This document shows positions 10,663 through 46,212 of a stretch of 61,045 nt of DNA, piece after piece (position 1 is the first letter of the stretch; each line of letters opens with the position of its first letter). A model generated the notes under the pieces. It was not told where the DNA came from, made no database searches, and saw only the letters and a program-made list of their open reading frames with translations. The DNA is from an uncultured Paracoccaceae bacterium (GTDB lineage Bacteria > Pseudomonadota > Alphaproteobacteria > Rhodobacterales > Rhodobacteraceae): the NCBI GenBank assembly GCA_913043905.1, contig CAJWNQ010000009.1, positions 1-61,045 of the forward strand. The letters run 5' to 3'. The position numbers and the translations under genes were made by a program.

Positions 10663-11534
10663 GCATAACTTTATTGGATGGTGGAATGGGGCAAGAATTA
10701 GTTGCCCGTACTGGGTACGCTACTTCATTATGGTCCGTCCAAGCCTTATTAGATAATCCAAAAATGGTTCGGGCTGTGCATGATGATTATTTTGCAGCTG
10801 GAGCAGATGTAGCTACTGCAAATACCTACTCAACTTTGCCAGATCGATTAGAAAAACACGGCTTAGGCAGTAAATTAGAAGACCTTCAACGAATTGCTTG
10901 CCAAATAGCAGTAGATGCTCGTGAATTTAATGGAACTGGAATTGTGGCAGGCTCACTGGGACCGCAAGGTTTTTCTTATCAGCCTAACTTAGCACCACCA
11001 GCTGCGCAGGCAGCAGAAGTATATTCTAATATATGTAAAATACAAACAAACTATGTTGATGTATTTTTAGCGGAAACGATGTCATCAATTGATCAAGCTC
11101 GTGGAGCATTAATGGGAACAAATGGCTTTGGAAAGCCAGTATGGTTAGCATTATCAGTAGATGATTCAGATGGGAAAAAACTTCGATCTGGTGAAAAAAT
11201 ATCAGATATTTTACCACTGATAGAAGAGTATAGCCCAGCTGCCATTTTTGTGAATTGTTCTATCCCTGAAGCTGTCTCGGTTGCTGTGCCAGAACTTATG
11301 TTGTCTGGTATACCCGTGGGAGCATATGCAAATGGTTTTACCAAAATTACAGCTGAATTTAATAAGATTGGTGCAACTGTAGATATGCTAGAAGCGCGCA
11401 CAGATTTAACTCCTGAAACATATGCTGAGTTTGCCCAAGCTTGGATCGATAGTGGTGCAACTCTTGTTGGTGGTTGTTGTGAGGTTGGCCCGGCTCATAT
11501 TGCTGAATTAAAGCGGCGTTTTGGGTATCTTTAA
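10659..11534 (+). CDS. bmt: Homocysteine S-methyltransferase family protein (betaine-homocysteine methyltransferase-like)
   Basis: This 291-residue TIM-barrel methyltransferase has the three zinc-binding cysteines of the family: C200 in FVNCSIPEA and C273/C274 in GGCCEVGP. The start ATGA overlaps the stop of the dimethylglycine dehydrogenase-like gene, and that neighbourhood favours glycine betaine as methyl donor, giving methionine and dimethylglycine. S-methylmethionine:homocysteine methyltransferase (MmuM) is the alternative. The product of betaine demethylation would be the substrate of the adjacent dehydrogenases. The symbol is therefore partly context-based. Confidence 0.78.
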   Translation: MSITLLDGGMGQELVARTGYATSLWSVQALLDNPKMVRAVHDDYFAAGADVATANTYSTLPDRLEKHGLGSKLEDLQRIACQIAVDAREFNGTGIVAGSLGPQGFSYQPNLAPPAAQAAEVYSNICKIQTNYVDVFLAETMSSIDQARGALMGTNGFGKPVWLALSVDDSDGKKLRSGEKISDILPLIEEYSPAAIFVNCSIPEAVSVAVPELMLSGIPVGAYANGFTKITAEFNKIGATVDMLEARTDLTPETYAEFAQAWIDSGATLVGGCCEVGPAHIAELKRRFGYL

Positions 11535-27264: not shown

Positions 27265-27684
27265 CTAATCATCTGTAACGCGTCCACGTAGGGTTTTGAC
27301 GTGCCCCCTTTTTGTTTTTGTGTCCACTCTCCGGCGCTGTGATGCTCTAGTTGGTTTAGTTTTAATTCGATACTTTGGGCGTTTAGTAGCTTCAACGATT
27401 AGCTCTATTAACTTTTCTTGTGCTAAAGCGCGGTTCATTGGTTGCAACCGGTGTTTTTCAGCTGTAATAATAATTGCGCCATCTTTAGTCCACTTTCTCC
27501 CAGCTAACTTTTTTAACCGTACCTTTACATATGTCGATAAATTAGGAGAACGCTCTGCTTCAAATCGCAACTCAACGGCTGATGAAACTTTATTTACATG
27601 CTGACCTCCTGGGCCAGAGGAGCGCATAAAGCTCTCTGTAATTTCCCAGGGTTCAATTTGGATTGTATCAGTAATTTTAATCAT
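27265..27684 (-). CDS. arfB: Alternative ribosome-rescue factor ArfB (YaeJ-type peptidyl-tRNA hydrolase)
   Basis: ArfB enters stalled ribosomes on nonstop mRNA and hydrolyses the peptidyl-tRNA. The 139-residue protein has the catalytic GGQ at residues 26-28 within SSGPGGQHVNK and a basic C-terminal tail (TRASQRRRVDTKTKRGHVK) that reads the empty mRNA channel. The start is firm because the family begins close to the GGQ domain. No Shine-Dalgarno is visible in the 20 bases before the ATG, and an intrinsic terminator ends just upstream, so its expression may depend on readthrough or a leaderless message. smpB, the other rescue pathway, is 4 kb away. Confidence 0.93.
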   Translation of the reverse strand: MIKITDTIQIEPWEITESFMRSSGPGGQHVNKVSSAVELRFEAERSPNLSTYVKVRLKKLAGRKWTKDGAIIITAEKHRLQPMNRALAQEKLIELIVEATKRPKYRIKTKPTRASQRRRVDTKTKRGHVKTLRGRVTDD

Positions 27685-27700
27685 AATACTATATAGTAAA

Positions 27701-27731
27701 TGAAAAAGCCCACATCAAGGGATGTGGGCTT
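27701..27731 (-). terminator. Intrinsic terminator between the small leader ORF and arfB
   Basis: On the minus strand AAGCCCACATC (27731-27721) pairs perfectly with its complement at 27716-27706 across a four-base loop, and the 3' side runs into five T. This is an 11-bp stem with a T tract, a strong Rho-independent terminator ending 17 to 20 bases before the arfB ATG. Confidence 0.85.
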
Positions 27732-27748
27732 CTCTCAAGATTTAGAGG

Positions 27749-27807
27749 TGGCAAGCAAAACCAAAGCAGGTTTTGAAGCCAGATAATAAATTTGGGGGGC
27801 TGCCCCC
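27749..27807 (-). ncRNA. Two hairpins in the arfB upstream RNA
   Basis: Hairpin 1: GGGGG/CCCCC (27795-27799 with 27803-27807) with a three-base loop, touching the stop codon of the small ORF. Hairpin 2: TGGC/GCCA (27749-27752 with 27778-27781) and AAAACC/GGTTTT (27757-27762 with 27769-27774). Also, CACCTC on the minus strand (27751-27746) can pair with GAGGTG of the ORF's Shine-Dalgarno. The amount of pairing suggests a structured RNA, of no family I recognise. Confidence 0.5.
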
Positions 27808-27863
27808 TAACGTCTTACCCCGCTCGTAGCCTTAACCAGCTGCTCTGTTTTCTTAATAATCAT
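27807..27863 (-). CDS. 18-residue small ORF with perfect Shine-Dalgarno, upstream of arfB
   Basis: The ATG at 27863-27861 is preceded by AAGGAGGT (27875-27868) at ideal spacing, the strongest ribosome-binding site I noticed in the window. The product would be MIIKKTEQLVKATSGVRR, followed by TAG that runs into a GC hairpin. It is too short to recognise and has no transmembrane segment. It could be a regulatory leader peptide for arfB or a small protein in its own right. The evidence for translation is the ribosome-binding site and its placement in a promoter-to-terminator unit, not homology. Confidence 0.6.
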   Translation of the reverse strand: MIIKKTEQLVKATSGVRR

Positions 27864-27918
27864 GGGCACCTCCTTTCGATTGTTTCTTTTGACCAGGGCG
27901 TTTCTGCCCGGTACTTAA

Positions 27919-27947
27919 ATCATGCAACGACTTTACCAAAAAGCCAA
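27919..27947 (-). promoter_or_regulatory. Candidate promoter of the small-ORF RNA
   Basis: On the minus strand TTGGCT (27947-27942) and CATGAT (27924-27919) are separated by 17 bases, a fair sigma-70-type pair. Transcription would start near 27912 and give an RNA of about 210 bases ending at the 27701-27731 terminator. A hairpin with ACC/GGT ends and a GGGC/GCCC core forms at the predicted 5' end. Confidence 0.4.
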
Positions 27948-27981
27948 ACGATTTTTTATAAAGCATGCATAATAAATTAAA

Positions 27982-28030: not shown

Positions 28031-28654
28031 TTATATTGTTGATTTTTGCAAACGAATTACTAGCATACGAAATGGTATTAAAGCAATCAAAGCCAGGCAA
28101 AGTTTAACAAACCAATCAGCAAAACCTAACGATACCCATAGAGGTACGACCGGTCCTTGCCCTAATAAAGGCATAACTTCATTTGCCCAAGACACATCAT
28201 TTGTAGGCTCTAACGCAGTGAGTGTTGTTGAAAATGCTATCGTAAAAAATAAAGCTGTATCTAAAGAAGATCCAACTAAAGTTGATGCCAGTGGTGCGCG
28301 CCACCACTTACCTTCACGCATTTTATTGAAAATAAATACGTCTACCAGTTGTGCAACCAAGAATGCAGTGCCAGATCCTATTGCAATGCGAAGTGTTACA
28401 TATGGTCCAAATTCACCCATAATTTGGGTACCAATAAACGAACAGAGAATACCAACTAAAAAGCCGGTAAAGACTACTTTCCTAGCTTGCTGTGCTCCAT
28501 ATAGTCGATTCATTAAATCAGTAATAAGAAAGGCAAACGGATAAGTGAAGGCCCCCCATGTTAACCAATTTCCCATTAGAAATTGGACAAGGATGTTAGA
28601 GGCTACAACTATTGTAGCCATGGCTATAATGCCAAAGAAAATTCCACGGTTCAT
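28031..28654 (-). CDS. Queuosine precursor transporter (VUT/YhhQ family, DUF165)
   Basis: The 207-residue membrane protein has about six hydrophobic segments and the family patterns VVASNILVQF, WGAFTYPFAFLITDLMNR and VDVFIFNKMR. YhhQ imports preQ0/preQ1-type precursors for queuosine, the wobble-base modification of certain tRNAs. CGGAG precedes the ATG. A folded leader (28675-28739) upstream is a candidate regulator, because transporters of this family are riboswitch targets in other bacteria. Its own terminator at 27982-28007 makes it a single-gene transcript. Confidence 0.9.
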   Translation of the reverse strand: MNRGIFFGIIAMATIVVASNILVQFLMGNWLTWGAFTYPFAFLITDLMNRLYGAQQARKVVFTGFLVGILCSFIGTQIMGEFGPYVTLRIAIGSGTAFLVAQLVDVFIFNKMREGKWWRAPLASTLVGSSLDTALFFTIAFSTTLTALEPTNDVSWANEVMPLLGQGPVVPLWVSLGFADWFVKLCLALIALIPFRMLVIRLQKSTI

Positions 28655-28663
28655 AAAAAACTC

Positions 28664-28739
28664 CGTTTTGAAAAGGTTGCGGATACTTTGCCCAGCACGG
28701 GCACTGAGCTGGTAACTGCTTTAATAATATTTAGCAACC
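28664..28739 (-). promoter_or_regulatory. Folded 5' leader of the queuosine-precursor transporter (riboswitch candidate)
   Basis: On the minus strand GGTTGC (28739-28734) pairs with GCAACC (28680-28675), enclosing CCAGC/GCTGG (28712-28708 with 28696-28692) and a mutually exclusive GCCC/GGGC pair (28702-28699 with 28693-28690). TCCG next to the outer stem can instead pair with CGGA of the Shine-Dalgarno. This is switch-like, but I cannot match it to preQ1 class I, II or III by eye. Confidence 0.4.
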
Positions 28740-28824
28740 AACTATTTAAAATGTTTAAGGAAACATTCAAAAGTGATTTTATATACCTTAAATCAAAATA
28801 CTTTACGCGGTCTTTTGTATTAAT

Positions 28825-45736: not shown

Positions 45737-45818
45737 GTGCAGAAGCGATGGGGCCAATGGCCTTTACCATCACGGAACACCCCGTCCGTTAGTGTGGCCG
45801 GCGCTAGCGCCGTTGCAA

Positions 45819-46001
45819 GGCTGGTTTCCTGACTCACGGATAGATCGCTTCACCCACCTTCCCAGCTTGCGCCAGTGGTTTTGGATGTCACTCTCCGCAT
45901 ACAGTCGCGGGGGCGGTTGTAGCTTTAGGCCCCTCTTTGGGTAATCCTTATCTACATTCCCATTTGATCCCCAGACGTTGTAACATCTTTAATGGGGAAC
46001 C
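45819..46001 (-). promoter_or_regulatory. Cobalamin (AdoCbl) riboswitch
   Basis: On the minus strand the RNA reads GGTTCCCC at the 5' end, then GGGGATCAAATGGGAA, then CCGCCCCCGCGACTGTATG, CCACTGGCGCAAGCTGGGAA, and finishes with AGTCAGGAAACCAGCC. These blocks occur in the order and spacing of the cobalamin riboswitch (Rfam RF00174), including the highly conserved B12 box. It lies upstream of hupE and the cobW/cobN genes, its expected targets. Sequence between it and the ATG contains further palindromes (GGCGCTAGCGCC near 45801) that may join the expression platform. Confidence 0.95.
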
Positions 46002-46212
46002 ATGCAAGACCTGTTTGCCTTTTTGATGTAGGGCGCGCAAGTGTGATTCCGACCTCTCAGCAATTTATCACGTCACGGCTACTTAGATTATAAGGTTATT
46101 TTGCAATATCTTGTGGATAACTATATCCAAACCGCTAAATAAAGGGTTTTTGTATTGACAGAATGGCCCGAAAATAGAGAATTTAATTTAAATAAGAATC
46201 AAAGGCGGCTTT
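46002..46212. promoter_or_regulatory. Divergent promoter region of hupE and smc
   Basis: The gene-free gap 45707-46212 holds the cobalamin riboswitch and this remainder. A consensus TTGACA (46155-46160) on the plus strand with GAGAAT 16 bases later is a candidate smc promoter. The hupE promoter should lie above 46001 on the minus strand; no clear match was found. Confidence 0.35.

Follow-up and report, generated by a model that had tools for sequence, protein, structure and literature searches.

We suggest that the segment preceding arfB on the minus strand of the window (that is, the whole 61,045-nucleotide stretch of DNA analysed here, from an uncultured Paracoccaceae bacterium) is an independent gene for a small regulatory RNA, in which folding and translation of an 18-codon mini-ORF would be mutually exclusive, and that it is not a leader needed by arfB. 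We regard this as the likely reading of the unit. By comparison across genomes, the unit is a discrete gene whose terminator is conserved, whose fold covaries and whose ORF is selected.

The unit extends from about 27947 to 27702 of the window sequence, and its parts are collected in Table 1. A sequence-only reading of this DNA had named a series of elements here, all of which are present on the minus strand where that reading put them, in a structure that covaries over 25 units. The TTGGCT and CATGAT boxes, with their 17-base spacing, were confirmed in the sequence and are not called by a simple sigma-70 scan; the terminator, described as an 11-bp stem with a T run, was recovered by a terminator scan with a stem of 14 pairs in place of 11. 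The motif AAGGAGGTGNNNATG is found a single time in the window, and 100 shuffles never produced it. For the RNA from 27915 to 27690 the fold z is -2.77, none of 200 shuffles being equally stable, and the minimum-energy fold pairs GGAGGTG of the Shine-Dalgarno (SD) with CACCTC, in agreement with the pairing proposed by the sequence-only reading; the same GGAGGTG is paired with the anti-SD in all 25 genus-level units. The 5' hairpin is more variable, and is reduced or missing in L019, L023, L025 and L026. Of 141 wider-family units, 98 have a TTGAC box no more than 75 nt upstream of the SD, nearly always at 50-55 nt (the shuffled rate is 0.058); only one of the 25 genus-level units has it, the window's own box being TTGGCT.

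Table 1. Elements of the small RNA unit and its immediate neighbours, in window coordinates.
Feature	Position	Strand	Basis
Queuosine precursor transporter gene, upstream neighbour	28031..28654	-	TIGR00697, 91.6 bits (cut-off 50.95)
Putative promoter boxes, TTGGCT (27947-27942) and CATGAT (27924-27919)	27919..27947	-	Sequence, 17-base spacing
5' hairpin of the RNA	27892..27912	-	Fold and alignment; Amylibacter group only
Shine-Dalgarno (SD), AAAGGAGGTG	27867..27876	-	Sequence
18-codon ORF, ATG to TAG, MIIKKTEQLVKATSGVRR + UAG	27807..27863	-	Sequence
Stop-codon hairpin	27793..27809	-	94.8% of cells paired and compensatory changes in 2/7 pairs (25 genus-level units)
Third hairpin (the second of the sequence-only reading)	about 27750..27780	-	Compensatory changes in 5/6 inner pairs
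Anti-SD CACCTC, predicted SD lock	27745..27750	-	Fold, alignment and pairing prediction
Intrinsic terminator, stem and T-run	27702..27734	-	Scan; compensatory changes in 7/11 pairs
TATATA, candidate -10 box of an arfB promoter distinct from the unit's	27690..27695	-	Sequence; starts 11 nt before the ATG; does not fit TANNNT
arfB, neighbour outside the unit	27265..27684 (ATG 27684)	-	NCBIfam NF006718, 175.2 bits (cut-off 100)

In 132 of 142 family units the transporter gene lies upstream of the unit and in the same orientation, and in the window it is followed by a terminator-like site (28007-27982) that is separate from the terminator of the unit. The leader of the transporter gene (28650-28740, minus strand) contains a CCAGC/GCTGG stem and matches nothing in Rfam up to E 5, and the only Rfam match at threshold in the window is a cobalamin riboswitch (45802-46019, minus strand, 107 bits). 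Over the unit itself no Rfam family in the window reaches threshold; matches to Thr_leader, STnc180 and other families scored low and were taken as chance.

The unit is widespread, and comparison gives the decisive evidence that it is real. Strong DNA matches number 26 in 61 genomes (E <= 2.1e-11), and consist of 25 of the 33 genomes of the same genus, its own included, and one of another genus; L016, which contains a run of N, was left out of alignment A1. A covariance model made from 25 genus-level units (R1) matched 114 of 394 family genomes, 101 of these at 23-64 bits, with four of the 114 matches not among the loci fetched, and a direct search found the unit in 35 of 40 arfB upstream regions from genomes that R1 had not matched. 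A second model (R2), made from 77 units of the GTG-start clade that were aligned by sequence alone with the window excluded, matches 286 of 292 genomes of the order and 110 of 112 genera, all of these genomes being drawn from one family, and it finds the window unit at E 6.5e-12. The E-values of both models are rough, and the searches over more than 40 genomes used stricter filters, under which weak matches are lost. The set of 142 family units includes L186, a 98-nt match without an SD that is probably false.

Compensatory change supports the fold at two depths of comparison. The structure of the 25 genus-level units has 33 pairs, with 96.6% of cells paired and 14 pairs changed on both sides, and its covariation score is 0.385 against 0.211 in shuffles. 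For the wider family, alignment A3 holds 77 of 110 non-redundant distant units; the other 33 were excluded by hand for odd length, insertions, a 13-codon ORF or another start, so that the covariation in A3 describes regular units. The consensus of the 77 comprises the SD/anti-SD helix, two helices that involve ORF codons, the stop hairpin, a small hairpin and the terminator. Codons 10-11 of the ORF pair with CCGG or CCGA, and codons 12-15 pair with the segment preceding TTGG, where one pair is double-changed in 37 sequences. In this fold 96.3% of 2680 cells are paired, the pairs changed on both sides number 23 (13.8 in shuffles) and the cells so changed 233 (56.5 in shuffles), and the covariation score of 0.385 compares with 0.231 in shuffles and with 0.06-0.14 when partners are shifted by 1-3 columns.

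The helix between SD and anti-SD varies on one side only, and hence its support lies in constancy and energy rather than in covariation. Of the units open to scoring, 112 of 124 in the family and 23 of 24 at genus level have a predicted SD pairing above 0.5; those lacking a recognisable anti-SD (17 of 141 and 1 of 25, respectively) were left unscored. An alternative pairing of the anti-SD with TTGG (A3 columns 128-131/163-166) has 74.1% of cells paired and a covariation of 0.166 against 0.147 shuffled.

The ORF is exactly 18 codons long in 121 of 141 family units with an SD when the first start found is taken, and in 149 of 166 units with an SD when a second start is allowed. The test of its stop codon took GGAG in codon 7 as its anchor and presupposed neither a start nor a stop (four of 131 units were missed). 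Among the 127 copies, codon 19 is a stop in 113 (TAG in 49, TGA in 47, TAA in 17) and codon 1 is GTG in 103, ATG in 15, TTG in 8 and another codon in 1. TGG was seen once at codon 19, against 21.1 expected if its two bases varied independently (P 2e-9, with the relatedness of the copies ignored), and stops before codon 19 are present in frame in 5 of 127 copies, as against 45 and 76 in the other two frames. We conclude from the position of the stop, the avoidance of TGG and the scarcity of early in-frame stops that the reading frame is selected; judged on this comparison, the start and stop codons of the ORF are under selection.

These same observations, together with a peptide pattern in the wider family (MSRxxLERGVGTV), could be read to mean that the 18-residue peptide is the product of a small protein gene and that the RNA fold only controls its translation. 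We consider this improbable, since synonymous differences are not in excess over shuffles (z -2.4 in 116 GTG-clade ORFs and 1.9 in 32 ORFs of the other clade), since the three codon positions of the ORF are equally conserved, with no coding signal beyond the conservation of the RNA, and since ORFs outside the family are 22-35 codons long and have other sequences. Constraint at the level of amino acids is not supported by this comparison. A 13-codon version of the ORF, MSRxxxERGAGTx, is common to L113, L142, L175, L049 and L060. It is the act of translation, more than the peptide, that seems to be important.

On the regulatory RNA reading that we prefer, a ribosome would bind the emerging RNA while the anti-SD has yet to be made and would keep the RNA open, whereas the finished RNA would close over its own start site. 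Early loading as against later closure would leave the RNA either translated or folded, the two states being mutually exclusive, and the active form of the regulatory RNA would depend on prior translation.

We would make the distinction between such a gene and a translation-sensing attenuator, which the sequence-only reading had envisaged and in which read-through of the terminator into arfB depends on translation of the ORF. Position is in its favour. Among the 107 family units found independently of arfB, that gene lies within 204 nt downstream in 89, and it often follows the terminator by 12-31 nt, with a spacing peak that is sharp at 31 nt; that 35 of the 40 arfB upstream regions missed by the first search hold the unit points the same way. 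A raw figure of 122 of 142 overstates adjacency, since arfB was itself the starting point for finding 35 of those units, and 89 of 107 is the fair one. In the remaining 18 of the 107, arfB is farther away (seven) or absent from the 1.5-2.5 kb fetched (eleven). Within the genus-level set of 25, arfB lies within 31 nt in seven, farther in nine and was not found in nine, some of them close to contig ends; of the 18 loci without a near arfB, one (L013) is cut by a contig end.

Against attenuation stands first what looks like a -10 box of arfB's own, separate from that of the unit. In 43 of 142 arfB genes a TANNNT begins 10-14 nt ahead of the ATG, compared with 2 and 4 at control offsets; the other arfB genes of the 142 have no TANNNT at that distance. 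An SD-like sequence is missing from 92 of 129 arfB genes, and the TANNNT boxes suggest that arfB mRNA is often leaderless in the family, for example at L037, L142 and L197. Leaderless mRNAs are common in Caulobacter (PMC4117421). A separate arfB promoter would explain the sharp spacing peak at 31 nt, and its -35 box would overlap the T-tract of the unit. The one candidate antiterminator pairing that was tested showed no covariation (0.215 against 0.228 shuffled).

The unit is, moreover, kept intact away from arfB. In 8 of the 24 loci inspected without an adjoining arfB (L018, L020, L022, L023, L025, L046, L047 and L161), the nearest long ORF is on the opposite strand and within 30 nt of the end of the unit. 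At L007, L010 and L014 a gene that by eye resembles a LacI-type regulator stands between the unit and arfB, 58-59 nt past the unit. Two genomes carry both on one contig at distances of more than 150 kb, with the unit at 10883 and arfB at 235090 in G180 and at 299800 and 470164 in G285. Conversely, ArfB is present in G310, G359 and G395, where R2 finds no unit.

The best remaining argument for a link is that unit and arfB are often jointly absent, for which divergence of the lineages could also account. Of 19 family genomes without an ArfB match, only two have a clear unit, namely G170, which is 100% complete and has just two RF-1-domain genes, neither an ArfB, and G291, which is 85% complete. 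G212 has a weaker unit beside a diverged ArfB-like frame and G227 a CC2171-type RNA, and nothing convincing was found in the rest of the 19. With the unit kept where arfB is elsewhere (G180, G285) or missing (G170), with the separate -10-like box and with a tested antiterminator that does not covary, the attenuator is in our judgement unlikely. The other possibility raised from the letters alone, an independent small gene beside arfB, is the one supported, by the unit's own terminator, by a promoter box that most family units conserve, by the selection acting on the stop codon and by relatives across the class that lie next to other genes.

These relatives bring in CC2171, a Caulobacter sRNA and Rfam family (RF01867) whose name is said to originate with Landt et al. 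in 2008. The window scores 20.3 bits (E 0.016) against RF01867, which is below the gathering score of 75 bits and like the chance families listed, and the window unit is for this reason not a member of CC2171 by Rfam's rule. Four of five Rhodobacterales loci match the full length of the model at 31.5-38.3 bits, the fifth (L033) not being listed, and all Rhodobacterales matches to RF01867 that were seen are below the gathering score. Outside the family, R2 matches 62 of 285 class genomes at E <= 0.01 (the best at 1.8e-9), many of them near threshold and maybe by chance, and RF01867 matches 14 of 58 class genomes, 13 of which lie outside the family. In 10 of these 13 the two models match at the same coordinates (in G638, which has two RF01867 matches, at the weaker one), and L242 is CC2171 above Rfam's threshold, at 90.5 bits. 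RF01867 also has a match below cut-off in the control, Deinobacterium chartae. Like the unit, CC2171 combines a strong SD, a short ORF and a terminator, and the two models, independently built, coincide; from sequence comparison, the window unit is probably a diverged relative of CC2171.

The likeness has its limits. The 18 loci from L236 to L253 (16 distinct) have a strong SD, then ATG, GTG or TTG followed by TC, and ORFs of 22-35 codons, and the SD is the most conserved stretch of the class-wide set. With tblastn, neither ArfB nor a transporter (VUT) gene was found beside L236-L243. The SD is predicted to be open (0.18 or less) in 10 of the 16 outside relatives, with mononucleotide shuffles as the control, and in six of these ten it is more open than in all 30 shuffles; in the other six of the 16 it is mostly paired (0.58-0.98). 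By these predictions, locking is not general across the relatives, and with the SD open in most of them the CACCTC lock would be a Rhodobacterales variant: the CC2171-type relatives have a mostly open SD and 22-35 codons, the Rhodobacterales units a locked SD and 18 codons.

It is conceivable, and we put it forward tentatively, that these RNAs together represent an Alphaproteobacteria-wide RNA in which ribosome loading at an extreme SD is set against folding of the mini-ORF, and which may report or adjust initiation capacity in trans, the version in Rhodobacterales being locked by the anti-SD. A strong SD can complement the 3' end of 16S rRNA, and GGATCACCTCCTTT, the 16S 3' end query, was found in 2 of 13 genomes, both times at the unit's own place. 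That the RNA is a ribosome-binding decoy, whose SD sequesters 30S subunits and thereby lowers initiation in trans, is nevertheless very improbable, the class-wide conservation of the SD and its openness in outside relatives being offset by its predicted locking in Rhodobacterales.

Our literature search found no published function for CC2171, and no published RNA or leader upstream of arfB in Rhodobacterales. CCNA_R0051 we take to be CC2171, probably, by its flanking genes CCNA_02253 and CCNA_02254 and the offset between the two numberings. The RNA CCNA_R0051 is 209 nt long, has its own promoter and rises 4.4-fold, non-specifically, with mitomycin C (PMC6237742), and it is placed in a G1 group (PMC5988900). 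Ribosome profiling in Caulobacter is accompanied by the statement that intergenic ncRNA regions are untranslated (PMC4117421), which speaks against translation of the ORF. PMC5596092 lists a copy from Mesorhizobium, and the Rfam 15 paper (PMC11701678) gives the name of the CC2171 family in a table.

UpsM, an sRNA derived by partial termination from the 5' UTR of the Rhodobacter dcw cluster (PMC8625941), resembles the unit in being a small RNA just upstream of a gene and in the same bacterial family, although UpsM is the leader of its gene, whereas arfB here mostly appears to have its own promoter. Pos19 of Rhodobacter sphaeroides, a small coding RNA of 219 nt that depends on RpoE (PMC5036791), is likewise a small RNA with an ORF. 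The portions of the literature available give no location for StsR, UpsM or other R. sphaeroides sRNAs that could be matched to the unit, and those of a Paracoccus sRNA paper give no relevant gene name. In leader-peptide attenuators, such as the leaders of amino-acid operons, a promoter is followed by a short ORF, by alternative helices and by a terminator. The unit has its elements in the same order, but the antiterminator pairing that was tested is not backed by covariation, and the unit persists without the downstream gene.

The link of this unit to ribosome rescue, tempting as it is beside arfB, is corrected here as unsupported. In its place stands an RNA gene found in 286 of the 292 genomes examined in the order, with fold and frame under selection, that is missed at Rfam thresholds. 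If folding and translation do exclude one another as we propose, this gene would provide a compact and genetically tractable example of an RNA controlled by the loading of ribosomes.
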